From: Cellvibrio sp. PSBB023
GTDB lineage: Bacteria > Pseudomonadota > Gammaproteobacteria > Pseudomonadales > Cellvibrionaceae
Direction: 5' to 3'
Assembly (NCBI RefSeq): GCF_002007605.1
Contig: NZ_CP019799.1
Span: 1,550,001-1,614,000 of the forward strand
Length of the DNA: 64,000 bases
In this document: in pieces, positions 5,247-38,657 of the stretch
How positions within the stretch are numbered: the stretch's first letter is position 1
Layout of the letters: each line of letters starts with the position of its first letter
Position numbers and translations under genes: made by a program
The notes under the pieces: generated by a model
The model's database searches: none
What the model saw: the letters and a program-made list of their open reading frames with translations, nothing else
What the model was told of the DNA's origin: nothing

Positions 5247-6269
5247 CTATTCCCGGATGGGTTTAGTGACCCAGCGCAGGGAGGTTGGATTAGCACTTAC
5301 ATTTTCAGTGCTTTCTTTTGCGATGCTCTCTGTTAAGGCGACCGGTATCGGCGTGGACTTAAATCGTTCCTGCCCCGGAATTAGCGGCATCGCACTGCTG
5401 GCGCCCTGCCCCGGACTCAGGCTTGATACCTGACTCAACTCCGCCAGAACTTTGCTGGTGTACTCGCGGGTTTCCTTAAAGGGAATCTGCCGCACCCAGG
5501 CCGAAACGCTAATGTCGCCGATACGCGGGTCGCCATGGCGTTCAAGCCATTCATCCACCCGCGCCGGGCCAGCGTTATAGGCCGCAACAGCCAACGCCTG
5601 CTCACCGTCATAGCGCTCCAATAGCTTGGACAAAAAGGCACTGCCGAGTTGCTTGTTGTAGTCGGCATCGCGGGTGAGGCGACCGAGGTTGAAATTCACA
5701 CCCAACTCCTGCGCCATTTGACGGGCGGTATCGGGCATTAACTGCATGATGCCCAGCGCGCCCTTGGGCGATACGGCATCCACCTGCCCAGCGGATTCCT
5801 GTTTGATCACACTGTCCACCAAGGCGCTAAACCCAGCCGAACCTTTGTTCCAGACATTGGCCAGACTATCCACCCCGCGCTGCCAGGTGCTGCGCAGGGA
5901 ATCCATGCTGGTGCGTTCGGGCAAGGCCGCCGCGCGCGCCGCTTCGCTGGCATCCTCAATGGTGCTCTGTTGATTGGTGTTGCCGGAGAGCTGCTGCACC
6001 AGTAAATCGGCAATACCGGTTTGACGCTTACTGGCGAGGGTATCGGCGAGCATGCCGTCATAGAAATCGCGCATGGTATCCAGCTCGCGGCTACGCATGG
6101 GGTTATCGGCAGCCAGCACATCGCCTGCTTTGCGCATTTGCTTGAGCACTTGCTGTAGGAACAGGGCTTCAAACTGCTCGGCAGCGGCTTCCAGCCCGGA
6201 GGGCGAAGCAGCGATAGCATTGCTGCTTGCCGAAGGGCTGGTGGAGTTATTGAGGGAGACAATACTCAT
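5247..6269 (-). CDS. flgJ: FlgJ rod-binding protein fused to an SLT-type lytic transglycosylase
   Basis: FlgJ caps the growing rod in the periplasm and opens peptidoglycan for it. Residues about 25-100 are the rod-binding domain (LEAAAEQFEALFLQQVLKQMR). After a linker, residues about 145-285 are a Slt70-type soluble lytic transglycosylase domain: catalytic Glu158 in KQES, GALGIMQLMP at 170-179 and the AYNAGP motif at 230-235. The classical gammaproteobacterial FlgJ instead carries a glucosaminidase (PF01832) domain. The 3' end of the gene contains a sigma28-type promoter for flgK. Confidence 0.93.
   Translation of the reverse strand: MSIVSLNNSTSPSASSNAIAASPSGLEAAAEQFEALFLQQVLKQMRKAGDVLAADNPMRSRELDTMRDFYDGMLADTLASKRQTGIADLLVQQLSGNTNQQSTIEDASEAARAAALPERTSMDSLRSTWQRGVDSLANVWNKGSAGFSALVDSVIKQESAGQVDAVSPKGALGIMQLMPDTARQMAQELGVNFNLGRLTRDADYNKQLGSAFLSKLLERYDGEQALAVAAYNAGPARVDEWLERHGDPRIGDISVSAWVRQIPFKETREYTSKVLAELSQVSSLSPGQGASSAMPLIPGQERFKSTPIPVALTESIAKESTENVSANPTSLRWVTKPIRE
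5337..5362 (-). promoter_or_regulatory. Sigma28-type (LafS) promoter for flgK-flgL
   Basis: The minus strand reads TTAAGT-N14-GTCGCC, the motif shared with both flagellin promoters, flgM and fliD. It is inside the flgJ coding region, about 110 bp before the flgK start. flgKL have a separate class 3 promoter in many flagellar systems, which agrees with this placement. Confidence 0.7.
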
Positions 6270-6278
6270 GGCGGGTCC

Positions 6279-7385: not shown

Positions 7386-7394
7386 GGTCTCCGC

Positions 7395-8875: not shown

Positions 8876-8924
8876 AACTTTCTCCTCTTGGCCTTAGCGG
8901 ATTAGCTGCCGTTAAGGTTTTTAA

Positions 8925-8996: not shown

Positions 8997-8999
8997 GAA

Positions 9000-13749: not shown

Positions 13750-13775
13750 TTAAGTCCCGCTCTGAGGTGGTCGCC
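13750..13775 (+). promoter_or_regulatory. Sigma28-type (LafS) promoter of flagellin gene 1
   Basis: TTAAGT-N14-GTCGCC lies about 80 bp before the ATG. Its spacing corresponds to TAAA-N15-GCCG of canonical sigma28 promoters. The same motif precedes flagellin 2, with a nearly identical 70-nt leader after it. Confidence 0.75.
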
Positions 13776-13785: not shown

Positions 13786-14095
13786 AGCAGGCAAACATGG
13801 CCAGCTTTGAAACCCGTTTTTACATTCACGTTTTACTTAGCACAGGAATATTTCCATGGCTCTGTCTATTCATACTAACTACTCGTCATTGATCACTCAG
13901 ACCAATCTGAGCAAGACCAATAACGCCCTCGGTACTAACCAGCAACGTCTGGGTACTGGTTTGCGCATTAACTCTGCGGCCGACGACGCTGCAGGCCTGC
14001 AAATTGCGACCCGCTTGAACGCGCAATCGCGCGGTATGGAAGTGGCCATGCGCAACACTGGCGATGCTATCTCCCTGTTGCAAACAGCGGAAGGC
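13786..14095 (+). repeat. Near-identical leader plus 5' coding block, first of two copies
   Basis: The leader and first ~240 coding bases of flagellin 1 recur before and within flagellin 2 (second copy about 14835-15145) with only a handful of substitutions, including in the untranslated leader. Flagellin 3 encodes almost the same N-terminus but with many synonymous differences. Recent gene conversion or duplication between copies 1 and 2 explains this. Confidence 0.8.
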
Positions 14096-14737
14096 GCGTT
14101 TAACGAAATGACCGATATTGTTCAGCGCATGAAAGATCTTGCCACTCAGGCATCGAATGATACCAACAGTACAGACGACCGTACCGCCCTCTCAGCTGAA
14201 TACAACGAATTGGGCAAAGAGTTGGCGAACATCATGACCAACACCAAATACGCTGGTGAAACTCTATTCGGCGTCACTGCCACTGCAGGCAAATTTGGTG
14301 CAGCTGGAGGCATGACATTTCAGATTGGCTCAAGCTCTACTGAAACCCTTACATTAAATGTCACCGCCAAAATGGGCACCCTGGTTGGTGCTCTTACTGC
14401 ACTCAACACACAATTCGCAGCTGTACCAGCTGCAGATGCGAAACTGACCACACAAGCGGGCGCTAGCGGTGCAATTACTTTGGCCGAGACGGCACTGAAT
14501 CAGATTGGTTCACTGCGTGCGGACTTTGGTGCAAACATCAACCGTTTAAACCACACTGCTAATAACCTGGCAAACATGAAAGACAATACCGATATGTCTA
14601 AAGGCCGTATTGTAGATGCTGACTTTGCTAAAGAAAGCGCCAACATGAGCAAAAACTCTATGTTGATGCAATCCGGTATTTCCATGCTGAAACAAGCTGG
14701 CCAAATGCCAGGTATGGTGATGTCGCTGTTGGGTTAA
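13856..14737 (+). CDS. Lateral-type flagellin, copy 1 (LafA-like)
   Basis: This is a filament subunit exported by the flagellar type III apparatus. The 293-residue protein has the D0/D1 N-terminus MALSIHTNYSSLITQTNLSK with the RLGTGLRINSAADDAAGLQIATRL block, and the C-terminal RLNHTANNLANMKDNTDMSK...ISMLKQAGQMPGMVMSLLG. The centre is short, so little surface D2/D3 is present, as in lateral flagellins. A GGAATA element lies just before ATG. It has its own promoter and terminator. The first ~240 coding bases and the leader are almost identical to copy 2. Confidence 0.96.
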   Translation: MALSIHTNYSSLITQTNLSKTNNALGTNQQRLGTGLRINSAADDAAGLQIATRLNAQSRGMEVAMRNTGDAISLLQTAEGAFNEMTDIVQRMKDLATQASNDTNSTDDRTALSAEYNELGKELANIMTNTKYAGETLFGVTATAGKFGAAGGMTFQIGSSSTETLTLNVTAKMGTLVGALTALNTQFAAVPAADAKLTTQAGASGAITLAETALNQIGSLRADFGANINRLNHTANNLANMKDNTDMSKGRIVDADFAKESANMSKNSMLMQSGISMLKQAGQMPGMVMSLLG

Positions 14738-14799: not shown

Positions 14800-14825
14800 T
14801 TAAGTTCGCAAGTAGTTTGGTCGCT
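14800..14825 (+). promoter_or_regulatory. Sigma28-type (LafS) promoter of flagellins 2 and 3
   Basis: TTAAGT-N14-GTCGCT stands 80 bp before the flagellin 2 start, the same distance as in copy 1. It is only 13 bp after the terminator of flagellin 1. Confidence 0.75.
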
Positions 14826-14905: not shown

Positions 14906-15742
14906 ATGGCTCTGTCGATTCATACTAACTACTCGTCATTGATCACTCAGACCAATCTGAGCAAGACCAATAACGCCCTTGGTACTAACCAGCAACGTCT
15001 GGGTACTGGTTTGCGCATTAACTCTGCTGCCGATGACGCTGCAGGCCTGCAAATTGCGACCCGCTTGAACGCGCAATCGCGCGGTATGGAAGTGGCCATG
15101 CGCAACACTGGCGATGCTATTTCCCTGTTGCAAACAGCGGAAGGGGCATTTAATGAAACCACCGATATTCTGCAGCGCATGAAAGATTTGGCCACCCAGT
15201 CAGCGAACGATACCAACTCCGCTGATGACCGCACCGCACTGCAAGCCGAGTTTGATGAACTTGCTAAAGAAGTAACCAATATTTTCACCAATACCAAATA
15301 CGCTGGCGAAGCATTGTTCACCACTAAATTTGCTGCAGCCGTTAGCTTTCAAATTGGTGCCAGTGCATCAGAAACCCTGTCTTTTGATATCAGCACTGAG
15401 ATAGGCGACTTAGACACAACACTGAACACCGATGTTACAGCCTTGACACTCGACACTGCCGCCAACTCTCGTGCTGCAATCACTGCACTGGAAGACGCCC
15501 TGGGTGAGGTTGGTTCGGTGCGCGCCCAGTTCGGCGCAAACATCAATCGCCTCAACCACACCTCCAATAACCTGGCCAACATGAAAGACAACACCGACAT
15601 GTCCAAGGGCCGCATTGTGGATGCCGACTTCGCTAAAGAAAGCGCCAACATGAGCAAAAACTCCATGCTGATGCAATCCGGTATTTCCATGTTGAAACAA
15701 GCGGGCCAAATGCCCGGCATGGTGATGTCACTGCTCGGTTAA
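14906..15742 (+). CDS. Lateral-type flagellin, copy 2 (LafA-like)
   Basis: A 278-residue flagellin, the shortest of the three. N-terminal and C-terminal helices match copy 1 almost exactly (one notable change is NETTDILQRM for NEMTDIVQRM). The central variable part (about residues 140-205) is different and more acidic. No terminator separates it from copy 3, which begins 45 bp later, so the two are probably one transcript. Confidence 0.96.
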   Translation: MALSIHTNYSSLITQTNLSKTNNALGTNQQRLGTGLRINSAADDAAGLQIATRLNAQSRGMEVAMRNTGDAISLLQTAEGAFNETTDILQRMKDLATQSANDTNSADDRTALQAEFDELAKEVTNIFTNTKYAGEALFTTKFAAAVSFQIGASASETLSFDISTEIGDLDTTLNTDVTALTLDTAANSRAAITALEDALGEVGSVRAQFGANINRLNHTSNNLANMKDNTDMSKGRIVDADFAKESANMSKNSMLMQSGISMLKQAGQMPGMVMSLLG

Positions 15743-15787: not shown

Positions 15788-16699
15788 ATGGCTCTGTCAA
15801 TTCATACTAACTACTCATCGTTGATCACCCAGACCAACCTGAGCAAAACCAACAATGCATTAGGCACCAACCAACAACGTTTGGGCACTGGCCTGCGCAT
15901 TAACTCAGCGGCAGATGACGCTGCTGGTTTGCAAATCGCCACCCGTTTGAACGCGCAATCTCGTGGTATGGATGTAGCCATCCGCAACACCGGTGACTCC
16001 ATTTCTTTGTTGCAAACCGCTGAAGGTGCATTCAACGAAATGACCGATATTTTGCAACGTATGAAAGACCTCAGCACTCAGGCATCGAACGCCACTAACA
16101 GCGGTGCGGACCTGATTGCATTGCAAGGCGAATACGATGAGTTGGGTAAGGAAATGGCTAACATCATCAAAAACACCAAGTTCGCTGGCGCCAACCTGTT
16201 CAGTGACGGCACTCTGGTAACGGGTGCGGGCGGTAAATTCTCGGCAGCGATGAACTTCCAGATCGGCGCCAGCGCCAGTGAGACGCTCAGCCTGAACGTC
16301 AGTGCCAAATTGACTGCACTGGGTACCGCGTTGGCTGCTGTATCTGACACCTACACCACACCGGGCACGCCAGGTGTTGAATTGGCGACCACCCAGGTAG
16401 CCACAACGGCTACTAACGCCAACGCCAACGCGAATATCACCCTGCTTGAAACTGCCCTGAACTCTGTGGGTTCACTGCGCGCAGACTTCGGTGCAAATAT
16501 TAACCGCCTGAACCACACGGCTAACAACCTGGCCAACATGAAAGACAACACCGACATGTCCAAAGGCCGTATTGTGGATGCCGATTTCGCCAAAGAAAGC
16601 GCCAACATGAGCAAGAACTCCATGTTGATGCAATCCGGTATTTCCATGCTGAAACAAGCCGGTCAAATGCCAGGCATGGTGATGTCACTGCTGGGTTAA
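15788..16699 (+). CDS. Lateral-type flagellin, copy 3 (LafA-like)
   Basis: A 303-residue flagellin with the same D0/D1 framework as copies 1 and 2 (small changes such as DVAIRNTGDSISLL) and the longest central region, rich in Ala/Thr/Asn. It lacks its own sigma28-type site; the short upstream gap keeps only the last part of the shared leader (CTTAGCACAGGAATATTT). At the nucleotide level it is clearly older than the 1-2 pair. Confidence 0.96.
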   Translation: MALSIHTNYSSLITQTNLSKTNNALGTNQQRLGTGLRINSAADDAAGLQIATRLNAQSRGMDVAIRNTGDSISLLQTAEGAFNEMTDILQRMKDLSTQASNATNSGADLIALQGEYDELGKEMANIIKNTKFAGANLFSDGTLVTGAGGKFSAAMNFQIGASASETLSLNVSAKLTALGTALAAVSDTYTTPGTPGVELATTQVATTATNANANANITLLETALNSVGSLRADFGANINRLNHTANNLANMKDNTDMSKGRIVDADFAKESANMSKNSMLMQSGISMLKQAGQMPGMVMSLLG

Positions 16700-16975: not shown

Positions 16976-17875
16976 ATGGAAATGACTCTTAGCGAAACCA
17001 GTATTAATGCTCAGACGGAAGAGCGAATTACCAAATCCCTGGAGAGCCAAACCTGCCTGATTATTAAAACGGGTAATGTTGATTGCGTTGTGTATTTTTA
17101 TCCTTCGCTGTATCAACTCACCTTAGTGAAATCCGGTATTGAAGAAAAAATTGATTTAGGATTTTCCGGCAGCCGTTTGCTTGAGCGTTTATTGCAAACA
17201 CCGGGCGATGTTGTCTCACGCGAGGATTTAATGCGTCACGCCTGGTCAGATCGCGTGGTGGGTCAAGGCAGCCTCAATCAACAAATTTATACCCTGCGCC
17301 AAATTTTAGGCGATGAAAAAGAGCGGGAAATTATTCAAACATTGCCGCGTCGCGGTTATATGTTGAACCCCAAATACATTGAAGTATCAACCAGTGCTGT
17401 ACAAGAAAGCGACACAGACATCACTGCTGATAGTGACAACAATTCGCACAAAAACCATTCAGCCACACCTCACCTGCCCGCTATTGCGCAATCACCAACA
17501 ACACCGGCGACGCCCAACTGGAATGCGCTGGCACAATTGCGTTTACCCCTGACAGCCGGGCTCTGTGCACTCACGGTGCTGGGGTTTCTGTGGACACAAC
17601 ATCACGATCACGGCACGATAAAAAACCATACAGGTGTAACACTCACCTATGCACCGGAGAACCCGGCACAATTAATTCAATTAGTGCCGCTGGGTGAAGC
17701 TATTAGTGAGCAACTGGAAAACCAGACCAGCGAACCTTTGCAATTGGTATTGGGATCGCACAACGAGATAGTCACTTTAGTATGCATGCGCACCGATGGC
17801 AGCGCGCGTAGTTTGCACATGCATAAAAATAAAGTGTCCAGTTTGAGCGGAGCCGATTTAGCGCCCTGTTTGTAA
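16976..17875 (+). CDS. ToxR-like transmembrane winged-helix regulator, LafZ position
   Basis: The 299-residue protein has an OmpR/ToxR-type winged-helix DNA-binding domain at about residues 55-130 (SRLLERLLQTPGDVVSREDLMRHAW and SLNQQIYTLRQILGD, then TLPRRGYML), a Ser/Thr/Pro-rich linker, one membrane helix at about 189-206 and a ~93-residue periplasmic domain with two Cys residues. This is the architecture of ToxR/CadC regulators that sense periplasmic signals. In enteric Flag-2 loci a membrane regulator named LafZ lies next to the flagellin gene, and this gene holds that position. No ribosome binding site is obvious; ATG 16982 is an alternative start. Confidence 0.85.
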   Translation: MEMTLSETSINAQTEERITKSLESQTCLIIKTGNVDCVVYFYPSLYQLTLVKSGIEEKIDLGFSGSRLLERLLQTPGDVVSREDLMRHAWSDRVVGQGSLNQQIYTLRQILGDEKEREIIQTLPRRGYMLNPKYIEVSTSAVQESDTDITADSDNNSHKNHSATPHLPAIAQSPTTPATPNWNALAQLRLPLTAGLCALTVLGFLWTQHHDHGTIKNHTGVTLTYAPENPAQLIQLVPLGEAISEQLENQTSEPLQLVLGSHNEIVTLVCMRTDGSARSLHMHKNKVSSLSGADLAPCL

Positions 17876-19763: not shown

Positions 19764-20498
19764 TTAGCTGCGTTCCCGCAAAAAGCGGCTGGCTTTGGTG
19801 ATAGCTTGTTTACTCAATTGGCAGACGCGCGCATCGGTTAAATCCAATACCAAGGCGATCTCTTTCAAACTCAATTCCTGTTGATAGTAAAGAATCAGAA
19901 TCAGGCGCTCGCGCTCATTCAATTCATTCAGTGCTTGCGCCAATAAACGCTCGGTGATTTCACGCTCTTCCAATCCCGAACTATTGTCGGCAAATATTTC
20001 CGGGCCATTGAGCAATAGCTCATCCAAACTTTCGATGGCCTCACAGGCATCGGCCTGTAAAAACGCCTGGTATTCTTTTTCACTCAAGCCGGTAAATTGC
20101 ATTACCTCGGCATCCTGCGGAGCACGGCCTAATTGCCGCGCCAGATGGCGAATGGCATCGCGAATTTTATGAGCCTGTTGACGCACTTGGCGTGGCCGCC
20201 AATCCTGCCTGCGCAATTCATCCAAAATGGCACCGCGAATGCGCAGCTTGGCAAAACTGCCAAAATTATCATCGGGCGTACCGTAGCGACGCAGGCTTTC
20301 CAGCAACCCCATCAAACCGATTTGCTCCATGTCATCGCGGTCGAGCACTTGACTTGCCTGTAGCGACAATTGCCGCACAATGCGCTTCACTAACGGCAAG
20401 TATTGGATCAACAACTGCTGTTCCAACTCAGGCGCAAATACTGCCGCCGGGCGTTGGCCAGCGGTGTAATCAAAATCAATGGCGCAGTTTGCATTCAT
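19764..20498 (-). CDS. fliA: Flagellar sigma factor FliA (sigma28, LafS-type)
   Basis: This sigma factor directs RNA polymerase to late flagellar promoters. The 244-residue protein has region 2 (LPLVKRIVRQLSLQ, then DRDDMEQIGLMGLLESLRRYG), region 3 (LRIRGAILDELRRQDWRPR) and region 4 (LNERERLILILYYQQELSLKEIALVLDLTDARVCQLSKQAI). Its likely targets are the six TTAAGY-N14-GTCGCY sites in this window. FlgM at 31107 is the expected anti-sigma factor. As in other lateral loci, it lies inside the fliD-motB operon. Confidence 0.96.
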   Translation of the reverse strand: MNANCAIDFDYTAGQRPAAVFAPELEQQLLIQYLPLVKRIVRQLSLQASQVLDRDDMEQIGLMGLLESLRRYGTPDDNFGSFAKLRIRGAILDELRRQDWRPRQVRQQAHKIRDAIRHLARQLGRAPQDAEVMQFTGLSEKEYQAFLQADACEAIESLDELLLNGPEIFADNSSGLEEREITERLLAQALNELNERERLILILYYQQELSLKEIALVLDLTDARVCQLSKQAITKASRFLRERS

Positions 20499-22609: not shown

Positions 22610-22997
22610 TGACACCGTCCCACCCTTCACGAATCACCCCAAGCAGGTGCACTACTTCTTCCAAGCCTTCCAGCGACAGGCTCACACTCACGTCGGATAG
22701 GCGATAAATGCAGTAGTCGTACAAACGCGACAACCCCTGCACCACTTCGCCACCGTTGTCGTAATCCAGTGCGCTGTTCAGGCCATTGATGATGTTCATG
22801 CACTTCTCCAGCGAGCGCCCTTTTTCCTGGTAGCGCTTGGCTTCGATGTGACCGCGTGTGCGCGCCAGTTCATCCAGCAAGCCATCAAATAACACCAGCA
22901 CCAATTCATAGGGCGATGCCGTGGCCGCTTTCGCTTCCAAATCCACGGAGCGATAGCTGTCGTAACTTTCATTGGCGAGATAAGGATTGTTCATCAA
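22593..22997 (-). CDS. fliS: Flagellin export chaperone FliS (LafC position)
   Basis: FliS binds the C-terminus of flagellin and prevents premature polymerisation. The 134-residue protein shows the family blocks ASPYELVLVLFDGLLDELARTRGHIE, the helix KCMNIINGLNSALDYDNGG and YDYCIYRLSDVSVS. It overlaps fliD by 4 bp and fliT by 17 bp. Confidence 0.95.
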   Translation of the reverse strand: MMNNPYLANESYDSYRSVDLEAKAATASPYELVLVLFDGLLDELARTRGHIEAKRYQEKGRSLEKCMNIINGLNSALDYDNGGEVVQGLSRLYDYCIYRLSDVSVSLSLEGLEEVVHLLGVIREGWDGVNAQRR

Positions 22998-24319
22998 AAC
23001 ATACCGAAGGTTTGTTCCATGGCCGCCATGGTTTGCATCATGCTGGTGTACTGCTTCAGATAGCGGGCATAGTAGTTGTCGTATTGTTTTTGGATGTCGT
23101 CGAATTGGTCATCCACACGGCTGAGCATGGTGTTCAAACTCTCCTTGCGCGCCTTCATCAAGTTGTTGGTGCCACTGGTATAAACCGCCAGGTTTTTATC
23201 AATGCTGTCGAGCAAGGCATCCTTGGCGTTAAACAATTTGTCCAACCCTTCGGGATTGGCGGCAATGGCTTTTTCAAAACGCGCGCTGTCGATCGTCAAA
23301 TTGCCGTTGCGATCCGCAGCGATACCAAAATCGATCAAGGTAACGCCGCCAAATTCGGTGCGTAACAGCTTGTTCAATGTAGATTCCACCGCGCGGATAC
23401 TCGCATCACCCGCCAATACGCCACGAGACGCCGATTCACCGCCGCTCGCGGTTAGCGAGTCAAACGTGCCCAACAAGGTATTAATGGCATTAATAAAACT
23501 CTGCACTTTGTCCTTGGTGGCTTTTTCATCGCGCCCCACCGTCACCGACAGCGGCTGCTCGCCCGTGCTATGGGCTTTGGTAAACGTCAGGCTCACCCCA
23601 TCGATAATGTTGTCGAAGTTATTGGTGGCATTCGTCAGCAACATGCCGCTCTCACCACCGAGTAATACCTCGGCATCTTTTGCGGCACTCAGCTCGCGTC
23701 GATTGGTCAACGCGGTATCAAATGCGCCACCACTAGTGCCGGATGTAGACACCCCAATCGCATTCTCCAAACCGGTTTTTTCACTGGCGAGTACCAAAGA
23801 CACAGTGCCATTACTGCGCACCAGCGTCGCTTTCACACCGCTGTTATCACTCGCCGCATTAATCGCCGCTGCCACTTCTGCCAGTGAATTACTGCCATTG
23901 CCATCGCTATCAATAGCGCTCAAATCCACGGTAAAACTTTTGCTGCCCTGGGTGATGGTCAGGTTACCGCTGGTATCCACATCGGTATCGCTCAAGCCTT
24001 CAATCGACACCTGATGAGCGCTGGCAAGCTGCTTCACAAAAAATTGGTAATTACCGGCAATCGCCGTCGTTCCCACTTTTGCGGTGGCATAACCTTCGCT
24101 GTTAAATGTCGCTGTATTGGTCAGCACACTTTTATCCGTGCCCTTCAAACTTTTAATACTGGAACTGAACGTTTTCAGCGCGGTTTCCAGCGAGGTAATC
24201 GCCGTCAACTTCGCTTTGTAATTCGTTTCATTGCGATTCGCCTTAGTCAACGCCGACTGCACTTCATAATTCGCCAGCTGGGTTGCCATACTTTTAACGT
24301 ACTCGGAATCTATCGCCAT
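22994..24319 (-). CDS. fliD: Filament cap protein FliD (HAP2, LafB position)
   Basis: FliD caps the filament tip and guides flagellin insertion. The 441-residue protein has the FliD N-terminal helix (YVKSMATQLANYEVQSALTK), the SLKGTDKSVLTNTATFNSEGY type block, a hook-IN-like segment (DTDVDTSGNLTITQGSKSFTV), and the C-terminal helical region KESLNTMLSRVDDQFDDIQK with YYARYLKQYTSMMQTMAAME. It heads the fliD-fliS-fliT-fliK-fliL-fliA-motA-motB operon. A sigma28-type site lies about 175 bp upstream. Confidence 0.95.
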   Translation of the reverse strand: MAIDSEYVKSMATQLANYEVQSALTKANRNETNYKAKLTAITSLETALKTFSSSIKSLKGTDKSVLTNTATFNSEGYATAKVGTTAIAGNYQFFVKQLASAHQVSIEGLSDTDVDTSGNLTITQGSKSFTVDLSAIDSDGNGSNSLAEVAAAINAASDNSGVKATLVRSNGTVSLVLASEKTGLENAIGVSTSGTSGGAFDTALTNRRELSAAKDAEVLLGGESGMLLTNATNNFDNIIDGVSLTFTKAHSTGEQPLSVTVGRDEKATKDKVQSFINAINTLLGTFDSLTASGGESASRGVLAGDASIRAVESTLNKLLRTEFGGVTLIDFGIAADRNGNLTIDSARFEKAIAANPEGLDKLFNAKDALLDSIDKNLAVYTSGTNNLMKARKESLNTMLSRVDDQFDDIQKQYDNYYARYLKQYTSMMQTMAAMEQTFGMF

Positions 24320-24492
24320 TGCAGTTCTCCTCGCGTGGGTTTCAGCAATATCAATGCCAACACATAACCTATTGTTTTATATAGGTTTAATGAAAAAACA
24401 TGCAGAAAAATTACTTCCGCTTAGGCCACAGGGAAGCGCAGGAGGAAAACCCGTTTCCGCATTCACTCACACAGAGCCCAATGCTTTACACA

Positions 24493-24518
24493 GGCGACAT
24501 AAAAGCCGTATGGCTTAA
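24493..24518 (-). promoter_or_regulatory. Sigma28-type (LafS) promoter of the fliD operon
   Basis: The minus strand reads TTAAGC-N14-GTCGCC, one substitution away from the form seen at the flagellins. It implies a 5' leader of about 165 nt before fliD. It lies between fliD and the first copy of the 120-bp repeat. Confidence 0.65.
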
Positions 24519-24862: not shown

Positions 24863-25531
24863 TTACTTTTCTTGATGAGAAAGATTGATGCTAAACCAAC
24901 TTGCTGCAGAGTCAATGCCAGCACCATCCCGATTTACAATTTCACTCCATGGTTTTCCAATAAATTCAGGTAAAAATACAATTGGATTAAGGCTGATCAC
25001 ATTTTTTTCACAGTGATAGGCAATTTGATCTACAGCCTCACAAATTCTCTTAGTTAATATTGACTTCTTAAGTGCAAGCTGTACCAAATTATCTAAGCAT
25101 AAATTTTTACTCTCAACATATTTAAGATCACATTTCGATTTTTTCAATACAGAAATTACCAATTCTTTAAAATGATCGACCAAATCTAACTGAACATGAA
25201 GTTTATTTAAATTCACATTGTTTTGTTTCATAACTTCAATTGCAGCAGTAATCAATTCTTCGAAAACTTCTGACGATATGACCACCTCATTTAAATGGTT
25301 TTGACCATTGTATATTTTCATATCATATCTAGATCCTAATTGAACAATCCACTGCCCATCAAGTGAACGCTTTTTGACTGGAATGTCATTGAATCTAAAT
25401 CCAGAATCTAACGTCACGTCGAGCAAGAATGAATTATTTTTAATTCTCTCTAAATTGCTAACAGGAGCTGCTGCTGTTTGCAGTGCGAGAAACATCAGTA
25501 CAAGAAGGATAGGTTTAAATATTAATTGCAT
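24863..25531 (-). CDS. Putative periplasmic immunity protein for the Rhs amidase toxin
   Basis: The 222-residue protein is encoded directly after the Rhs gene and overlaps its end by 10 bp, so translation is coupled. ATG 25531 has GGAG 7 nt upstream and starts a clear Sec signal peptide (MQLIFKPILLVLMFLALQTA, cleavage near AAA-AP). The mature part has an N-terminal beta-rich section and a helical C-terminal half with four Cys (KSKCDL, KNLCLD, KRICEA, YHCEK) that could form disulfides in the periplasm. Tae4 amidases act on peptidoglycan and their Tai4 immunity proteins are small, periplasmic, helical and Cys-containing. Size here is about double Tai4, so it may be a divergent or new immunity family. 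Confidence 0.65.
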   Translation of the reverse strand: MQLIFKPILLVLMFLALQTAAAPVSNLERIKNNSFLLDVTLDSGFRFNDIPVKKRSLDGQWIVQLGSRYDMKIYNGQNHLNEVVISSEVFEELITAAIEVMKQNNVNLNKLHVQLDLVDHFKELVISVLKKSKCDLKYVESKNLCLDNLVQLALKKSILTKRICEAVDQIAYHCEKNVISLNPIVFLPEFIGKPWSEIVNRDGAGIDSAASWFSINLSHQEK

Positions 25532-28500
25532 GAACATGCTCCTATAGGAAGAACCCAAGCATCACCTAAAAATCCACTTACGTATGGATCAGTGTAGTTA
25601 CTAGTAACAACTGCGGCATGACCGCCAGAGGATACAACTGCTACTTGTCCTGTAGCCAACGAACTTTGCAATACATTTAATTGGTTTGAGTTTGTTAATG
25701 TTTGAGATGGATCCCCCCAAGCCTGCCGTAGGTATGCATTCATTTGACGAGCGGAAATGATATATCTATTGGTTCCATCACCCCAATTTCGATTAGCACC
25801 AGGAGCACCAGATGGTATTTTAGCTCCACCCATATTAAGAGCATAACTGACACGTGCAGCGCAAGAATTTTGAAGACCACCAGGTGAGTTCTCACCATAT
25901 AGCTCATTCATTTTAAAACCGATTAAATTCCAGACATCAGCCCCAGTGTACTCGTTGTAATTTGGATAATTATTCCAGAAGTTTGAGGATGTTGGCATTC
26001 CACACTCACACAACCCCGTGAGGTCAAATCTATTATTAGGATTGTTACCAACATACGTGTAAGTATTCAAACCAGCAGCCAAACCAATAGGATCGCTCTG
26101 TGTATACCGTCCCGTCGACGCATCATAATAGCGGTTCCAGTTGTACCAGAGGCCGCTCTCATTATCGTAATACTGGCCAGGGTAACCAATATTCAAATCG
26201 CCAATTTGATTTGTAGAAACCGTTCGATCATAGGGCTTATTGTATGCTCTCCAAACAATGGTATTACTAGTATTAGTAACAAGGTGTGGGCGACCAATAT
26301 GATCGGTGTGGACATAATGTAATGCACCGTTGTGAATTAACCCGATCAATTGTCCATCCAGCCAAATATATTGTCGGCTTATCGTCAGTGAATTATTAGC
26401 GGTTTCTCCTAACAATAGACCGTTAGGTGCATAAACATAATTGATATTTACCGGGCCGGATTTTCTCACTCGCTGATTCAAGGCGTTGTACAAATACACT
26501 GTTGTAGATCCACCTACTGTGACCGTTTCTTTGCGATTGAAACGATCATATGTGTAAGAAGTTGTCACAGCAGAAGCCGATTTTGAAGTGATGTTGCCGA
26601 TAGGATCATATTGGAAACTTCTAGCGTTAGATCCCGTAATTGTTATAAGGCGATCCGTTCCATATTGGTATCCATAATTCCTGGTTGATGACATAACCGT
26701 TTCCGTCAAACGATTACCATTCAAGTCATAGGTATAGCTGTCATTTACCATATATGTACTGACATTTTTCAAGCGGGAATCCGCATCGTATTGATACGTA
26801 AAAGACTCATAAGGGCCATTGTTAACGCTAGTAAGATTATTATTGCTGTCATAACCAAAACTAATTGATTGAACGCCACCGCTGGTGATGCTGGTCAAGC
26901 GATAATCCAAATCGCGTGGCATAGAGCGTGTGGTTCCATTCCCAAATGTCCAACCGGAAACTGGTCCATATGCATAATAATTAATATTACTTGCCAGGGT
27001 TTGCGTTGTAGTACCAATGGTGACTTTAACTGCATTGACTCGCCCCAAGTTATCGTACTCATAAATAACCTTATTGCCACCAGGGTATGTGATGCTTGAA
27101 ACTCTGCCATTAGCATCATATGCCCAACTGGTTGAGTAGCTGACAAGATTATTAATCGTGGAGGATTGGCTGCTCAATGAGCCATCTTTGTTGTAACTAA
27201 AACCAACTCCAACACCCATGTTGCTCGCCGCACATAGTTTGCCTTTTCCATTGTTGCAATTGTCGTACGACCATGTTTGAACTCGTGTGCCGGTACCAGT
27301 ACCAGAACTCGCTTGCGTCATTCTGTTAAGCGCATCGTAGCTATAGGCGATCGAAATACCATTAGCGCGTGTAATCTGCGTCATCCTGCCACGATTATCA
27401 TAAACATAATTGCTTACACCTGTTTCCGGACTCGTAACTTTCACATTGTTACCCAAACCATCAAATACATAATTGGTTGATTTGGTCCGACCATCAATTA
27501 ATTGCGTCAGATTGCCTGTTGAATCGTAGAAACTTTGGATATAAGCATTAATTGCAGTGGTTGTAGTAATGCGCTGATTGTGGATGTCGTAAGTATGATG
27601 GCTGTATTGATTGAGCGAGTCCCTTTCCGAAACCAAATTATTGTTATTGTCCCACTGGTAACCCTTACTCTGACCTGAGTTGCCATTTTCCGTGAGTACA
27701 CGACCGAGTTCATCACGCACATAGCTCCGATAATGATGAAGGGTATTACCTGTGTATTTGCTAATAGAACTGATATCACCATCAGTGGTGCGAGTGTAAG
27801 ACTCAGTTATTAAACGCGAACTAGATGTTCCTTTGGCAATTTCACTAACAGAACCATTACTTGAGTAATCTATGTATTCCGTTACGCCGTTTTTCGTACT
27901 TTTGGTCATTCCAAATGGGCCATACTCAAAAGAGTTTGTGCGAGGTGAATCGCTCCCCGTAATTACCTCCTGAGTAACGCGCCCCCTTGCATCATATGTC
28001 AACGTTTTCACCAAACCATTAGGGTCGGTGATTGTGCCTGGCAAACCAGATGATGCGTGGTTGCTATAAATAGTTGTATGTCCTGCTGCATTGGTAGCGC
28101 TGGTGAGATAACCTTGCGAATTCCATGAACGCGTACCACCAGCAGCTCCACTCACAACCATTTGAGACATTACTTTATTGCTGTGGAAGCTGTAACTAAA
28201 ATTGGTTGTCTGGCATTGATTAAGAATACCGATTGAGCGGCGATTACAAGTGGTTGCACTTTGCAATAAGTCTTTTGAAGCGTGGCTAGCTGGGTAATAA
28301 ACAAAGTTGGTTTCATCTATCGGATCAGAAAGACTTGCACCAAATCTTTTTTCATTAGTTAGCTTGCTACCATTTTGGTATATGTATGAGAATTGAGTAA
28401 TACGCGTTAATGAAGAATCATTTGGATTGCTGACACGTTTCTCAGAGACAAGACCCGCCTGATTGTAAGTGTAGCTTGTGAGCCCACCGTTCCAGTCAGT

Positions 28501-29883
28501 TTGTGTAAGTATCGCACCATTGGAATTATAAGTTGTTAATGCAGCAGCATCAGGACAAGACTGCACACCACTTCGTTCAACACGCTTTAAGTTGCGCATT
28601 CCCGATTCAACTTCATAAATATATTTACTGCGCGCACCTTTAGAGTTTGTGACTATAGTGTAAGTAGGATCGTACTCGAATGTGGTGGAAAAAGAGCCAT
28701 CTGCTCTGGCACTTTCGATTACTCGTCCACTATTGTAAAAATAATTGCTATAGCGGATACCATTGTAAGAGATGCCTGTTAATAAATTACCAATCGCACC
28801 ATTTTCTCCGTAGTGATATGTACGCGATCCCGTACCTGAAGGATAAGTAACTGTATTGTTTCCGTAAGCATAATATTTACCACCGGAATCTGTCACACCC
28901 ACAATGTTGTTCCCGCTCCAGGTAAATTGGATATAGCGGCCGGATGAGTGAGTTACTCTGTAAAGGCCAGAGTTATTGTAAGTAAATGTCCAGCCTACAC
29001 CTGCAGCATTGTGTTTGGTTAATATGGTGCCACTGTGGTCATATACTTCAACACCACCATCATCCAGTATGAAAGTCCATTTTCTTGTGTGGAAATTATA
29101 AGTTTGCCACGGTGTAATCGACCCTATTGCTTTGCTCCCATCCGGTGCTCTACGTTCAATCTCCACGGGAAATATATCATCTGAGTCTTCACGCCAATCA
29201 TAACATTCACCATAGGTAGGGCCGCACTGAGTAAGGTATTCCCCAACGATATTAGCGTGATCATATGTGATATTTAGATAGTAGCTATAGCTATGTCTCC
29301 AGCTTGGGCCAACGCTACCCATTCCAGGTGATCCATTTTGCCCTGCACGGTAATAGCGAATAAAGTCCAAAGGCATTTCTGCGTCGCTACCGTCAGTGAA
29401 ATCAACCTCAGTCTGTATTTTTTGGCCTGAAGAAACAATTACAGGGTTTCCTGCCGTATTGCATGCGTCATCTGGATTCGGTTCTGGTTCTGGAGGAGGC
29501 GGTGGTTCTGCTGGCTGTGATCCGCTATTGCCATAACCAATTCCACCGCCAGGGTACCATCCAGAGTCACCTCCCAACCTATCTTTACAGCCAGGGAACC
29601 AATTATATCCCTCGCACTCACCGTCAGGCGTGGCCTCTACCACCACTGGTAGCCCTAGGCAATACTTTAAATCGTGCTCTAAACAAGCCGATTCACTCGT
29701 GTGAGATCCGAACTCAGAGTCACCCCAAGTAAACGCGCACGTGTATTGAACTGCTTGCTGGCATTCGTGAAGAGTATCGAACGCGAATGCACTTTTTGAA
29801 ATAAATAAAGAAAAGATTACCGTTCTTACCAAGGGAATATAGAAAAAGTAAGGTTTTTTATTAAATCCAGAAAAAAATGACAC
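25522..29883 (-). CDS. Secreted Rhs/YD-repeat polymorphic toxin with Tae4-like amidase tip
   Basis: The 1453-residue protein starts at GTG 29883 behind AAGGAG. A Sec signal peptide (cleavage near SAFA, residue 35) is followed by a Cys-rich region, a Pro-rich linker (about 125-140) and a DUF6531-like entry (NPVIVSSGQKIQTEVDF). A long Rhs/YD-repeat shell leads to the core block DHIGRPHLV, YDASTGRYTQSDPIGLAAG and a final FDLTGL. The last ~155 residues match the Tae4 peptidoglycan amidase pattern: catalytic Cys1341 in NSCAARVSYALN, His1422 in GGHAAVV, terminal LGDAWVLP. Tae4 enzymes cleave between D-Glu and mDAP in the peptide stem. No PAAR domain is present, so the export route (Sec plus surface release) differs from T6SS-loaded Rhs. 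The gene is AT-rich relative to its neighbours. Confidence 0.85.
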   Translation of the reverse strand: MSFFSGFNKKPYFFYIPLVRTVIFSLFISKSAFAFDTLHECQQAVQYTCAFTWGDSEFGSHTSESACLEHDLKYCLGLPVVVEATPDGECEGYNWFPGCKDRLGGDSGWYPGGGIGYGNSGSQPAEPPPPPEPEPNPDDACNTAGNPVIVSSGQKIQTEVDFTDGSDAEMPLDFIRYYRAGQNGSPGMGSVGPSWRHSYSYYLNITYDHANIVGEYLTQCGPTYGECYDWREDSDDIFPVEIERRAPDGSKAIGSITPWQTYNFHTRKWTFILDDGGVEVYDHSGTILTKHNAAGVGWTFTYNNSGLYRVTHSSGRYIQFTWSGNNIVGVTDSGGKYYAYGNNTVTYPSGTGSRTYHYGENGAIGNLLTGISYNGIRYSNYFYNSGRVIESARADGSFSTTFEYDPTYTIVTNSKGARSKYIYEVESGMRNLKRVERSGVQSCPDAAALTTYNSNGAILTQTDWNGGLTSYTYNQAGLVSEKRVSNPNDSSLTRITQFSYIYQNGSKLTNEKRFGASLSDPIDETNFVYYPASHASKDLLQSATTCNRRSIGILNQCQTTNFSYSFHSNKVMSQMVVSGAAGGTRSWNSQGYLTSATNAAGHTTIYSNHASSGLPGTITDPNGLVKTLTYDARGRVTQEVITGSDSPRTNSFEYGPFGMTKSTKNGVTEYIDYSSNGSVSEIAKGTSSSRLITESYTRTTDGDISSISKYTGNTLHHYRSYVRDELGRVLTENGNSGQSKGYQWDNNNNLVSERDSLNQYSHHTYDIHNQRITTTTAINAYIQSFYDSTGNLTQLIDGRTKSTNYVFDGLGNNVKVTSPETGVSNYVYDNRGRMTQITRANGISIAYSYDALNRMTQASSGTGTGTRVQTWSYDNCNNGKGKLCAASNMGVGVGFSYNKDGSLSSQSSTINNLVSYSTSWAYDANGRVSSITYPGGNKVIYEYDNLGRVNAVKVTIGTTTQTLASNINYYAYGPVSGWTFGNGTTRSMPRDLDYRLTSITSGGVQSISFGYDSNNNLTSVNNGPYESFTYQYDADSRLKNVSTYMVNDSYTYDLNGNRLTETVMSSTRNYGYQYGTDRLITITGSNARSFQYDPIGNITSKSASAVTTSYTYDRFNRKETVTVGGSTTVYLYNALNQRVRKSGPVNINYVYAPNGLLLGETANNSLTISRQYIWLDGQLIGLIHNGALHYVHTDHIGRPHLVTNTSNTIVWRAYNKPYDRTVSTNQIGDLNIGYPGQYYDNESGLWYNWNRYYDASTGRYTQSDPIGLAAGLNTYTYVGNNPNNRFDLTGLCECGMPTSSNFWNNYPNYNEYTGADVWNLIGFKMNELYGENSPGGLQNSCAARVSYALNMGGAKIPSGAPGANRNWGDGTNRYIISARQMNAYLRQAWGDPSQTLTNSNQLNVLQSSLATGQVAVVSSGGHAAVVTSNYTDPYVSGFLGDAWVLPIGACSCN

Positions 29884-30367: not shown

Positions 30368-30826
30368 TTAATAATACTGCGGCGAATAAACCTGCTCTGC
30401 CTGTTGCCCGCCTAAAATGTGATTGATAATTTCGTTGTGCATGGCGAGTAATTTACCGTTGCGTTCGTTGAGGCGTTTGGTTTCGCTTACCAAGCTTTCC
30501 AGTTGCGACCAGCGTGCGAGTGGGCTCATGGATTCGGGGAGCATGCACAGTAATTTGACTATGCCTTGGTTGCTCGCGGCGGCGGGGATGCCGAAGGCGG
30601 CGAGTATTTTTCGGCGGCGTTCGGCGCGGGCGCGAATAAATTCGATCAGCACGAGTATCTGTTGATTGAGCTGTTCAATTTGTTCGCAATTACGCAGCAG
30701 CAGTTGCTCGTAAAGGCATTGCATGAGCCCCTGCAAACCCTGGTAGTCGGCGCAGTCCTGTTCTATGTCGCGCCCGGCCAATTGAACCAATTGCTGGGCG
30801 CGATTCAATTGTCCGGTGTCAGTCAT
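30368..30826 (-). CDS. flgN: FlgN-type export chaperone
   Basis: FlgN chaperones the junction proteins FlgK and FlgL. The 152-residue, wholly helical protein begins MTDTGQLNRAQQLVQLAGRD and has the FlgN-like pairs LQGLMQCLYEQLLLRNCEQIEQLN and SLVSETKRLNERNGKLLAMH. It overlaps the flgM stop by 4 bp and ends the transcript at the 120-bp repeat terminator. Confidence 0.85.
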   Translation of the reverse strand: MTDTGQLNRAQQLVQLAGRDIEQDCADYQGLQGLMQCLYEQLLLRNCEQIEQLNQQILVLIEFIRARAERRRKILAAFGIPAAASNQGIVKLLCMLPESMSPLARWSQLESLVSETKRLNERNGKLLAMHNEIINHILGGQQAEQVYSPQYY

Positions 30827-31107
30827 AAATCGCTACTGCGGTGATAGGCGAGAATACTGTGGGCGAGCACTTTTACATCGCTGCTTAATTCGCCGCGCGC
30901 CAGCGCTTGTTTGATGGCGGTGACTTGGTCCATGTCGATTTCCGGCAGTGCGCGCATGGCTTCTTGCAATTCTTCCAGGCGCGGTTCTGCGTTGGCATTT
31001 TGTGTAGCTGCAGCGGTTTTGGAGGGCGCAGCAACGCCGGTTTTGCCTGCGGCCGGTGCCTCAGTGGCGGCACTGTAGCCAGATGTAATGTGCCTGCTGA
31101 TTTCCAT
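30823..31107 (-). CDS. flgM: Anti-sigma28 factor FlgM
   Basis: FlgM binds sigma28 until the hook is complete and is then exported. The 94-residue protein has the usual disordered Ala/Thr-rich N-terminal half and the conserved helical C-terminal half (EIDMDQVTAIKQALARGELSSD, then VLAHSILAYHR). AGGA precedes ATG 31107. A sigma28-type motif about 60 bp upstream suggests feedback by the sigma it inhibits. Confidence 0.94.
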   Translation of the reverse strand: MEISRHITSGYSAATEAPAAGKTGVAAPSKTAAATQNANAEPRLEELQEAMRALPEIDMDQVTAIKQALARGELSSDVKVLAHSILAYHRSSDL

Positions 31108-31161: not shown

Positions 31162-31187
31162 AGCGACCCATTCTGGCGATTACTTAA
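31162..31187 (-). promoter_or_regulatory. Sigma28-type (LafS) promoter of flgM-flgN
   Basis: The minus strand reads TTAAGT-N14-GTCGCT in the 124-bp gap between fliJ and flgM, about 55 bp before the start codon. Confidence 0.75.
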
Positions 31188-33697: not shown

Positions 33698-33706
33698 ATC
33701 GGCCCC

Positions 33707-36440: not shown

Positions 36441-36475
36441 GTGAACATCTCACTCGGGTTTGGGGAATGGGGGGA

Positions 36476-36835
36476 TTAGAGCGGTGTACGCATAATCTCT
36501 TCAAAGGCGCTGGTCACCTTGTTGCGCACCTGCATCAGCGCCGAAAACGACACGCTGGCTTTCTGGCTTTCAATCATGGCACCTACCAGATCATCGCTGG
36601 CACCCGAATCGACTGCTGCTGTCAAGGCGCCCGCTTTGTGGTGCTGGTTGTCGATGGCGGTGAAAATCTCACCAAAGGCAGTGCGGAACCCGTCTTTTGG
36701 GGCTGAACCGCCCTCCAATCCGCTGGCGTCAAACAGCGTCGATGCCTCCAGTACCGGGCCTTCGGCGCCCTGTTTCATCTGCTCCATGCGCCCCAACAAA
36801 TCCTGCTGTACTTGCGTTATTGAATTCATATCCAC
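36476..36835 (-). CDS. fliE: Hook-basal body protein FliE
   Basis: FliE joins the MS-ring and export gate to the rod. The 119-residue protein contains the family C-terminal block ASDDLVGAMIESQKASVSFSAL and MQVRNKVTSAFEEIMR. It lies between lafK and fliF, with 32 bp after lafK, and could be co-transcribed with it. Confidence 0.94.
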   Translation of the reverse strand: MDMNSITQVQQDLLGRMEQMKQGAEGPVLEASTLFDASGLEGGSAPKDGFRTAFGEIFTAIDNQHHKAGALTAAVDSGASDDLVGAMIESQKASVSFSALMQVRNKVTSAFEEIMRTPL

Positions 36836-36867
36836 GGTCTCTGATACATTCAGGGTTAAAGAATGGG

Positions 36868-38265
36868 TTAAAAAGTAATTTGTACGCCCTGCTCACGCAT
36901 GGCGGTCAAGCGATAGCGCAAGGCGCGGGGCGTCATGCCCAGGCTTTCTGCCGCCTTGGCTTTGTGGCCGCCAAAGCGGCGGATGGTATCTATTACATGC
37001 TGGTACTCCGCCCACTTACCGCTGGCGCGCAGGGCAGCTTTGCCGCACATCTCGCTGTTTAGATCCGCACCAGATTCAGTGACATAGGGTTTTCCGGGGA
37101 TTGCGCCGCGCGTAGCGGGCAATGCCAGGCCCAAATCCTGGGGCTGGATAAACAGACCATTGCGCAACACCAAGGCGCGTTGCAGCATGTTTTCCAGCTC
37201 GCGCACATTGCCCGGCCAATCGTGGGCCAGCAGTGCATCGCAAGCTGCCGGCGTGAGCAGGTCATCGCGCTGTTCATGGGGAGCGTGTTTACGAATCAGG
37301 CGCCGCGCCAGAGGCAGGACATCCTCTTTGCGCTCGCGCAGTGGGCAGATGTGCAGGGGCAATACATCCAAACGGAACATCAAATCGGCGCGGAAACGGC
37401 CCTCGGCCACCTCCTGCTGCAAATCGCGGTTAGTGGCGGCGATAATGCGTACATTGAGCGGGATTTCCTTGTGACCGCCCAAACGCTCTACCCGCTGCTC
37501 TTGCAGTACACGCAGCAACTTGGCTTGCAATCCCAAGGGCAGCTCGCCGATTTCATCGAGCAATAAAGTGCCGCCATTGGCCAATTCAAACTTGCCCGGC
37601 TGGGCAGCGGTTGCACCGGTAAAGGCGCCGCGCTCATGGCCGAACAACAGGGATTCCAGCATCTGCTCAGGAATGGCCGCGCAGTTCACGGCAATAAAGG
37701 GAGCATCATCGGCAGCAGAAAAACGGTGGATATAACGCGCCATCATCTCCTTGCCGGTGCCAGTTTCGCCGGTGATGAGGATCGGTGCCCGCGCCAGCGC
37801 AACCCGCTGGGCCATGGCTAATAAGCGGCGACCCGCTTGCGAGCAGGAGACAAAACTCTCCTCCGCGGCCAAACCGGATTCCTGCCGTTGCAGGAGTGCA
37901 TTTAATTGCGGGGCGCTAAACGGCGCTAATAAATAGTCAACACAACCCAACTCCAGCAGCGCAGCGGCTTTTTGCTGGTCGGCATACTCAACCACGGGAA
38001 TCACGCTGATGTCGGGCGCATCGCCAATCATGGCGCCAATACGCGCAAACAGGCCGCTGCCGGGGAAGCTACTCACAAACACAAAGATCAGGTTGGCCTG
38101 GGCGATAAGGCTGGTGCTCAGTTCAGAAAACTGTGCGCAGTGAATCACCTGGCAGTCGCGCTGCATCAGTCCGCTGGTCAGCAGGCTGTAACCATCGTCG
38201 CGCGAGTGCCCCAGAATAATGACCTTGCTCGCAGCAGCAACATGTATTGATTGGCTTGTAGACAT
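36868..38265 (-). CDS. lafK: Sigma54-dependent flagellar activator, LafK-type
   Basis: LafK activates early lateral flagellar genes with sigma54. The ~465-residue protein has a degenerate receiver-like N-domain (about 15-125) in which the phospho-acceptor region reads NLIFVFV, without the Asp. The AAA+ domain carries Walker A GETGTGKE (about 166-173), the sigma54-contact loop GAFTGA (213-218) and the Walker B run GGTLLLDEIGEL. A Fis-type helix-turn-helix (GHKAKAAESLGMTPRALRYR) ends the protein. ATG 38265 is used; in-frame GTG 38268 and TTG 38274 are alternatives. It heads the minus-strand fliE-J block and is divergent from fliM, the arrangement known in Vibrio and enteric lateral loci. Confidence 0.9.
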   Translation of the reverse strand: MSTSQSIHVAAASKVIILGHSRDDGYSLLTSGLMQRDCQVIHCAQFSELSTSLIAQANLIFVFVSSFPGSGLFARIGAMIGDAPDISVIPVVEYADQQKAAALLELGCVDYLLAPFSAPQLNALLQRQESGLAAEESFVSCSQAGRRLLAMAQRVALARAPILITGETGTGKEMMARYIHRFSAADDAPFIAVNCAAIPEQMLESLLFGHERGAFTGATAAQPGKFELANGGTLLLDEIGELPLGLQAKLLRVLQEQRVERLGGHKEIPLNVRIIAATNRDLQQEVAEGRFRADLMFRLDVLPLHICPLRERKEDVLPLARRLIRKHAPHEQRDDLLTPAACDALLAHDWPGNVRELENMLQRALVLRNGLFIQPQDLGLALPATRGAIPGKPYVTESGADLNSEMCGKAALRASGKWAEYQHVIDTIRRFGGHKAKAAESLGMTPRALRYRLTAMREQGVQITF

Positions 38266-38657
38266 CACCGTCAATCACCTTCTATGGGTTGCATCCGGAT
38301 TGTGGGTTAACCCGAAAGCCGGGTATCGCATTTAAGTGTTGTGCGCGCCGGGTCGCCCTTGAAGAGCATTAGCCACTGTGTGATACAGCGCCACCAGCGC
38401 CGTGAACCAGGTCACGCCACCAAACCATAACAAGCACCCCGCAAAGCACTAAATCATTTGGCATCAAATAAAATCAAAACGTCTAAAAACCCCTTAAAAA
38501 CAGCTTTTGATATCTATTGATTTAATTTCACCGCCCGCCCACTCCTATACTCGCTCGCAATGAGGGCTGATGCTGTTATCGCCCTCCCACGGACATTGAT
38601 CACTGCAATATCCATCACAGCCACATTTATCTCAGCGACACTTATCCAGTACAGGAA
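38266..38657. other. Divergent regulatory region between lafK and fliM
   Basis: No gene is visible in this 392-bp region. It must carry the promoters of both lafK and the fliM operon. I find a sigma28-type motif near its left end (38332-38357, plus strand) but no convincing sigma54 -24/-12 pair. The right half is AT-rich with a possible sigma70-like TTAATT-N18-TATACT ending about 100 bp before fliM. Confidence 0.5.
38332..38357 (+). promoter_or_regulatory. Sigma28-type (LafS) motif about 300 bp before fliM
   Basis: TTAAGT-N14-GTCGCC matches the flagellin form exactly, on the plus strand facing fliM. It would give a leader of nearly 300 nt, or start a separate short RNA. fliM operons in lateral systems are expected to be early (sigma54) genes, so a late promoter here is unusual. 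Confidence 0.6.

Follow-up and report, generated by a model that had tools for sequence, protein, structure and literature searches.

In Escherichia coli, the class 3 promoters of the sigma28 factor FliA follow the consensus TAAAGTTT-N11-GCCGATAA (PMC2859248). Swarming of Vibrio parahaemolyticus requires FliAL (PMC8630636), and a FliAL regulon has been described in Plesiomonas shigelloides (PMC11242183); no promoter consensus is given for either FliAL regulon in the portions of these reports on which we drew, to which all our statements on published systems refer. The Flag-2 loci of Enterobacterales include lafK (in cluster 1), lafZ, lafA, lafS, and lafTU, and in one strain, of Escherichia fergusonii, a variable region of the locus contains an Rhs cargo gene (PMC6993521). 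A published promoter consensus for LafS was not found in the open-access literature, which was the scope of the search, and a prior description in a subscription journal is possible. Here, we analyze a stretch of 64,000 nucleotides (nt) from Cellvibrio sp. PSBB023 (contig NZ_CP019799.1, positions 1,550,001 to 1,614,000; hereafter the window), which holds a lateral, Flag-2-like flagellar cluster with the same laf genes, including lafS, and a recurrent motif, TTAAGY-N14-GTCGCY. On the basis of sequence comparison, RNA polymerase with the lateral sigma28 paralogue LafS very probably uses this motif as its promoter, in a form distinct from the promoter set of FliA in the same cell.

The sites share with the E. 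coli FliA promoters a bipartite layout, an xAAG −35 element, a −10 element opening with GYCG, and the same classes of targets, namely flagellin, hook-associated proteins, and flgM (PMC2859248). They differ in reading TTAAK rather than TAAAG, in a spacer that is one base longer, and in CGCYT in place of CGATAA, and their presumed reader belongs to a distinct sigma clade. As the first-pass annotation had proposed, the five sites adjacent to genes form a class 3-type set, matching the FliAL-dependent genes of Plesiomonas, although the list quoted for that species includes no PilZ gene (PMC11242183), in front of which an additional site was found in the window. The predicted sites are:

5337..5362, minus strand: predicted LafS-type promoter of flgK(L), exact match, inside the 3' end of flgJ, 110 nt from the flgK start
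13750..13775, plus strand: predicted LafS-type promoter of lafA1, exact match
14800..14825, plus strand: predicted LafS-type promoter of lafA2 and probably lafA3, exact match, just 3' of a terminator-like hairpin that ends lafA1
24493..24518, minus strand: predicted, autoregulatory LafS-type promoter of the fliD...lafS-lafT-lafU operon, exact match, 173 nt from the fliD start
31162..31187, minus strand: predicted LafS-type promoter of flgM-flgN (anti-sigma), exact match
38332..38357, plus strand: exact motif match of doubtful function in the lafK-fliM gap, 300 nt from the fliM start, not conserved
45446..45471, minus strand: additional predicted LafS-type promoter of a PilZ-like gene, TTAAT-N15-GTCGCC, from a relaxed-pattern scan, 56 nt from the start codon

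Both strands of the window were scanned for the exact pattern, with 100 dinucleotide shuffles as the control. All six sites of the first-pass annotation were recovered at their claimed positions and strands, compared with a mean of 0.02 matches and a largest count of 1 in the shuffled sequences. Allowing up to two mismatches yielded 17 matches against 13.96 expected, with no one-mismatch site at all; the lack of one-mismatch sites and of an excess at two mismatches implies that the motif is tight. When the gap g in TTAA-N(g)-GTCGCY was varied from 5 to 30, seven pairs were found in the window at g = 16 and 0 to 1 at each other value. The same gap was the only one enriched in the clusters of five relatives (21 pairs vs 0–4) and in 18 Pseudomonas/Stutzerimonas loci (45 vs 0–5). 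A chance origin of the motif set is thus ruled out by the shuffles, the gap scan, and the conservation of the sites.

Conservation was assessed among 144 genomes of Cellvibrionaceae, six of which, including the source genome, encode LafS at an identity of at least 73%; each of the five LafS-bearing relatives also has a FliA-like match (37–41% identity). Some match to LafS was present in 101 of the 144 genomes, mostly FliA-like, and the sporadic occurrence of true LafS (6/144) suggests horizontal transfer or repeated loss. In the fetched clusters of the five relatives, sites were scored out of 12 at spacing 14, with either G or T accepted at the fifth base, a choice made after seeing the relatives. 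A score of at least 11 was reached before flgK in both available regions, before lafA in 5/5, before fliD in 4/5, and before flgM and the PilZ-like gene in 4/4 each, and the second lafA of one relative (G141) was also preceded by a site. The spacers of these sites mostly differ in sequence. Elsewhere in these clusters, none of the 23 remaining upstream regions reached 11, i.e., those of fliM (0/4), lafK (0/4), the genes in the flgB position (0/3) and flgA position (0/3), the lafZ-like gene (0/5), and lafT (0/4). Among random stretches of 430 bases from the source strain's own polar and fliA regions, 1.2% reached 11 and 0 of 20,000 reached 12. The assignment of the sites to a LafS (sigma28) regulon, as originally suggested, thus holds for five of the six, with position, orientation, and spacing conserved before flgK, lafA, fliD, and flgM. 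In one relative (G027, L147-L149), the fetched stretch does not include the half of the lateral cluster from flgN to flhA, and a good LafS-type site is lacking before fliD; this cluster may be split or decayed.

The genome of the source strain encodes a second sigma28 factor, FliA (C1:919480-920136), which is 39% identical to LafS, and polar-type flagellins at C1:1023812 and C1:1026493. A relaxed scan for canonical promoters (13 letters, at least 12 matching) found four 12/13 sites in the 37 kb polar region, before flgM, a CheV-like gene, fliC, and fliD, which read TAAAG-N14-GYCGMTAW, vs none in the window and the fliA region, which together span 124 kb and have 16 sites at 11/13. Within the window, the canonical FliA promoter TAAAG-N14-GCCGATAA had no match at 12/13 and eight at 11/13, none of them at a motif site, and the strict form TNAAG-N14-GCCGATA was not enriched genome-wide (8 vs 5 for the reversed pattern). 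The two promoter sets differ in the second base of the −35 element, in the spacer, and in the end of the −10 element, after GYCG. The original description had placed the difference in the −10 sequence GTCGC. That is only partly correct: the predicted polar fliC promoter carries GTCGATAA, i.e., GTCG there too, whereas the three features just named do discriminate. Likewise, whether the spacing equals the canonical one, as claimed initially, depends on the alignment; anchored on the G of the −35 element and the G of the −10 element, the spacer is 15 for LafS and 14 for FliA. The lateral consensus differs enough from the polar one that LafS and FliA could read separate gene sets.

The two types of sigma factor are also readily told apart. 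LafS sequences came from 18 of 80 named loci plus L071, L098, G000, L107-L111, and G418, and FliA sequences from the source strain and L112-L135; two LafS genomes were present twice, and the tree covered LafS from outside Vibrio. LafS (26 rows) and FliA (25 rows) formed separate clades with a split support of 1.0. Region 2.4 reads DWRPR in 26/26 LafS rows and DW[VAL]PRS in 25/25 FliA rows. Region 4.2 reads [DE]AR[VI]CQL[SN]K in 23 of the 26 LafS rows, the automatic pattern having missed or misplaced the helix in L062, L071, and L164 (L071 has EARVCQLNK in the alignment), and ESR[VI][SC]Q[IL]H[ST]Q in 22 of the 25 FliA rows, with the helix misplaced in L122, L127, and L133. By the general map of sigma regions, we infer that these residues touch the changed promoter bases.

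Beyond Cellvibrionaceae, the same sites recur with LafS. We examined named loci of Cellvibrio (L008-L009), Pseudomonas/Stutzerimonas (L010-L027), and Rahnella (L071). The best match at spacing 14 before lafA scored at least 10/12 in all 20 regions and at least 11 in 18; before fliD, at least 10/12 was reached in 19/21 (the two failing being L027 and L071), and before flgM, at least 11/12 in six of the seven testable regions, with spacing 13 giving the fit in the remaining one. From 66 rows, 46 remained after the removal of near-identical ones, and these non-redundant sites yield the consensus YTTAAK-N15-GTCGCYT. This set leaves aside the site at 38332, fliD of G027, L071, L008/L009 (judged to be the same genomes as G029/G016), upstream pieces exceeding 400 bases (L009 flgM, truncated by the end of the locus), and sites below 10/12 at spacing 14 (L027 fliD, and L027 flgM, which fits at 13). 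TTAA, N16, and GTCG are constant across the 46 sites, whose spacers diverge in sequence. The invariant letters are partly circular because the sites were picked by match, yet the sites also share a Y 5' of TTAA and a T 3' of GTCGCY, both outside the search pattern.

The LafS proteins of Oxalobacteraceae are 53–60% identical to that of the window. An open count of gapped words in these bacteria gave TTCA-N16-GTCG as the most shared one, present in 34/34 fliD upstream regions, and it precedes fliD in 39/39 loci that passed the fliD filter (from 59 loci, L028-L087 minus L071, the other 20 being without a filter-passing fliD match). A class-level search of 369 genomes (E <= 1e-41) returned the source genome, one distant gammaproteobacterium with a LafS-like protein (G418, 53% identity), and four matches of 38–41% identity that resemble FliA. 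In G418, fliD is preceded by TTCAG-N15-GTCGCT and flgK by TTAAG-N15-GTCGCC, with no clear site upstream of flgM. In one strain with the E. coli Flag-2 locus, TTAAG-N14-GTCGTT precedes lafA and TTAAG-N15-GCCGCT precedes flgK, with no site of this kind before fliD and at best a poor match before flgM; the promoters of this locus are thus looser than those of the window. Rahnella lafA is preceded by TTAAT-N15-GTCGTT, and in Vibrio campbellii, TTAAT-N15-ACCGCC stands before lafA and TTAAA-N16-GTCGCC before fliD. LafS-like sigma genes also occur on four records filed as E. coli plasmids (H11-H14 of the plasmids collection). The motif is thus found alongside LafS in Cellvibrio, Pseudomonas, and Oxalobacteraceae, and in a looser form in Rahnella, E. 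coli Flag-2, and Vibrio. This distribution points to a promoter type of the LafS family rather than a peculiarity of the source strain, and the YCGYY-type −10 element looks like a trait of this family that is sharpest in Cellvibrio, Pseudomonas, and Oxalobacteraceae. The shifted promoter preference inferred in the first-pass annotation is supported in this sense, but as a property of the LafS family and not of this LafS in particular.

Several observations weigh against a LafS-specific promoter. Counted over the whole genome, the strict 12-base pattern shows no enrichment: the genome (4,705,304 bases, one contig) contains seven matches, as does the reversed control. The genome-wide search suggested at the outset thus bears out the concentration in the window, which holds six of the seven, but not a genome-wide excess; what is unusual is the clustering of the sites, not their number. 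The seventh match (C1:2305811) is probably due to chance, because it sits within long open reading frames (ORFs) and its 26 bases recur identically in G018, a genome without LafS. In a scan of 21 genomes of the genus, the LafS-bearing relatives had 3–9 strict matches each (5 in G016, 3 in G017, 5 in G027, and 9 in G029), and the 16 genomes without LafS had 0–5; only 3/5, 2/3, 1/5, and 2/9 of the relatives' matches, respectively, fall within the lateral cluster, in part because TTAAT or TTAAA is used at some genes. Furthermore, fliD has no good site in G027, L027 (labelled P. plecoglossicida), Rahnella, and E. coli; the motif is looser in Enterobacterales and Vibrio, where the spacer length deviates by one base at some genes; and the residue signature is incomplete in Vibrio LafS (DWRSR, PPRICQLHK), a departure that fits the looser Vibrio promoters. 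Further targets outside the cluster are not supported, the relaxed pattern TTMAK-N15-GTCGCY being rarer in the genome than its reversed control (31 vs 39). Outside the window there are 14 TTAAK matches. ORFs of at least 110 amino acids (aa) enclose 13 of them, including C1:3149281, which is in a 113-aa ORF and lies just 5' of a 481-aa ORF; the remaining one (C1:2183177) is followed after about 160 nt by a 416-aa ORF. Neither of these two sites is claimed as a target.

Could the sites be ordinary sigma28 promoters with drifted letters, read by both FliA and LafS, so that there is no separate code? Both sets have an xAAG −35 element and a GYCG −10 element, and GTCG occurs even before polar fliC, but the invariance of the 46 lateral sites despite their diverged spacers, partly circular as it is, and the four canonical 12/13 sites in the polar region vs none in the window argue for separation. 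Moreover, changing TAAAG to TATAG or CAAAG reduced the FliA-driven activity of the E. coli aer promoter from 223 to 26 or 23 units, respectively, neither being the TTAAG change (PMC2859248), and in V. parahaemolyticus the loss of FliAP and of FliAL separately abolishes swimming and swarming (PMC8630636). We consider a shared code improbable. A dedicated regulator, e.g., the LafZ-like protein (16976-17875) encoded within the cluster, could also bind such sharply conserved sites; however, the motif is neither palindromic nor repeated, has a fixed orientation, a promoter position, and a sigma28 layout, and accompanies LafS in Oxalobacteraceae loci without a listed lafA or LafZ-like match (L028, L029, L037, L045, L051, and L080), which makes a binding site of this kind very improbable. 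A different question concerns the site at 38332, which the first-pass annotation had counted as a regulon member before fliM. It is intergenic and an exact 12-base match, with 0.02 expected per window, but it was found in none of the four relatives and lies 300 nt from fliM, normally an early gene. We did not retain it in the regulon, and a LafS promoter restricted to this lineage, serving the fliM operon or a small RNA encoded between lafK and fliM, is possible though doubtful. Two insulated sigma28 circuits in one cell, with LafS binding the lateral sites, would best explain the data.

The additional target is a gene beside flhA, at the end of the cluster:

45042..45389, minus strand: stand-alone PilZ-like protein, 115 aa, with RxxxR and DxSxxG in the alignment

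Its start codon is at 45389, and a site of at least 11/12 precedes the same gene in all four relatives in which it was scored. The protein itself had no Pfam hit; PF07238 was found in 32 of 49 homologues (55–76% identical), though the nine closest all lacked it; among the source names listed for the homologues, three read 'PilZ domain-containing protein'. When a PilZ homologue was compared with PDB sequences, the single match had E = 1 and was of no use. Two more divergent homologues (P0045 and P0048, 54–59% identity) are on long contigs, one of them named Cellvibrio, and have no arginine at position 14. In E. coli, ycgR is FliA-dependent. The stand-alone PilZ proteins MotL, which acts on the lateral motor in Shewanella (PMC8203827), and FilZ, which acts on the polar system in Pseudoalteromonas (PMC10304486), each have a single PilZ domain and, like the PilZ-like protein of the window, are encoded with lateral flagellar genes; however, motL and filZ adjoin motAB, whereas the window gene adjoins flhA and has a predicted LafS-type promoter of its own.

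The genes that the predicted promoters serve, and their neighbours, are:

2900..3814, minus strand: gene in the flgL position, 3' of flgK (Flagellin_N, PF00669 over cut-off)
3859..5226, minus strand: hook-associated protein FlgK (TIGR02492 over cut-off)
13856..14737, plus strand: lateral flagellin LafA1 (NF038071 over cut-off)
14906..15742, plus strand: lateral flagellin LafA2 (NF038071 over cut-off)
15788..16699, plus strand: third lateral flagellin, lafA3, 80% identical to LafA1, without a site of its own, 45 nt 3' of lafA2
19764..20498, minus strand: LafS, sigma28 (FliA/WhiG) family by TIGR02479 (231 bits, cut-off 189.6); NF009091 at 282.7 bits, under its cut-off of 339
22994..24319, minus strand: FliD/LafB, first gene of the lafS operon, from its position and FliD families (best 152 bits, under cut-offs)
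24345..24359, minus strand: candidate sigma54 −24/−12 site, TGGCAT-N5-TTGC, one mismatch, nearer to fliD than the LafS-type site
30368..30826, minus strand: chaperone FlgN (PF05130 over cut-off)
30823..31107, minus strand: anti-sigma28 factor FlgM (TIGR03824, 48 bits, cut-off 40.75)
36868..38274, minus strand: LafK-type sigma54 activator (sigma54-activator families, all listed ones under cut-offs)

A flgJ-like gene and fliL were assigned by family and fliM by a weak family match, whereas the flg rod and hook genes, lafU, lafT, fliK, fliS, fliJ to fliE, and fliN to flhA were placed by order and synteny. The operon fliD-fliS-...-fliL-lafS-lafT-lafU is present beside lafA, with lafS, lafA, fliD, and fliL identified by family and fliS, lafT, and lafU by order and synteny. 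The gene lafA3 was not mentioned in the first-pass annotation of the motif. One terminator-like hairpin ends lafA1 and another lies 3' of lafA3, with none between lafA2 and lafA3, and lafA3 is probably read together with lafA2. The LafZ-like protein (16976-17875, plus strand) contains a Trans_reg_C domain, which we take to be of the CadC/ToxR type, and has a match near lafA in 5/5 relatives (38–50% identity). Between fliD and flgN lies a gene for an RHS-repeat protein with a Tae4-like amidase C-terminus (25522-29883, minus strand), and beside it a small ORF of no known family (24863-25558, minus strand), possibly an immunity gene; neither had a match in the fetched clusters of the five relatives. 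The sigma54-type site at fliD is not above chance taken alone (6 matches in the window vs 10 expected), and the corresponding position carries a similar site in several Pseudomonas loci, E. coli, and Rahnella. Activation at this site would likely depend on LafK.

Together, these features suggest a circuit in which LafK and sigma54 would first transcribe the early genes and the fliD-lafS operon, and the lateral FlgM would keep LafS in check up to completion of the hook. Export of FlgM would then free LafS, which would switch on flgKL, lafA1, lafA2-lafA3, flgMN, and the gene of the PilZ-type effector, presumably responsive to cyclic di-GMP (c-di-GMP). LafS would also drive its own operon, a positive feedback, as well as the gene of its own anti-sigma factor. 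In a broader interpretation, to which we incline with reservation, LafS would constitute a sigma28 subfamily of Gamma- and Betaproteobacteria with its own code, TTMAK-N15-GTCGCYT, set by DWRPR in region 2.4 and ARVCQL[SN]K in the recognition helix of region 4.2. This interpretation includes complete insulation of the two flagellar programmes, the positive LafS loop, a c-di-GMP effector linking lateral filament synthesis to motor control, and a possible natural orthogonal sigma/promoter pair.

Bacteria with two flagellar systems must separate two near-identical late-gene switches. In the case described here, the presumed separation would be readable as a code, consisting of two sigma28 paralogues, two promoter types, and a few amino-acid differences that track them. 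This would make the promoter specificity of sigma28 factors testable by swaps, predict lateral regulons in many genomes, and add a putative c-di-GMP effector to the lateral late genes.

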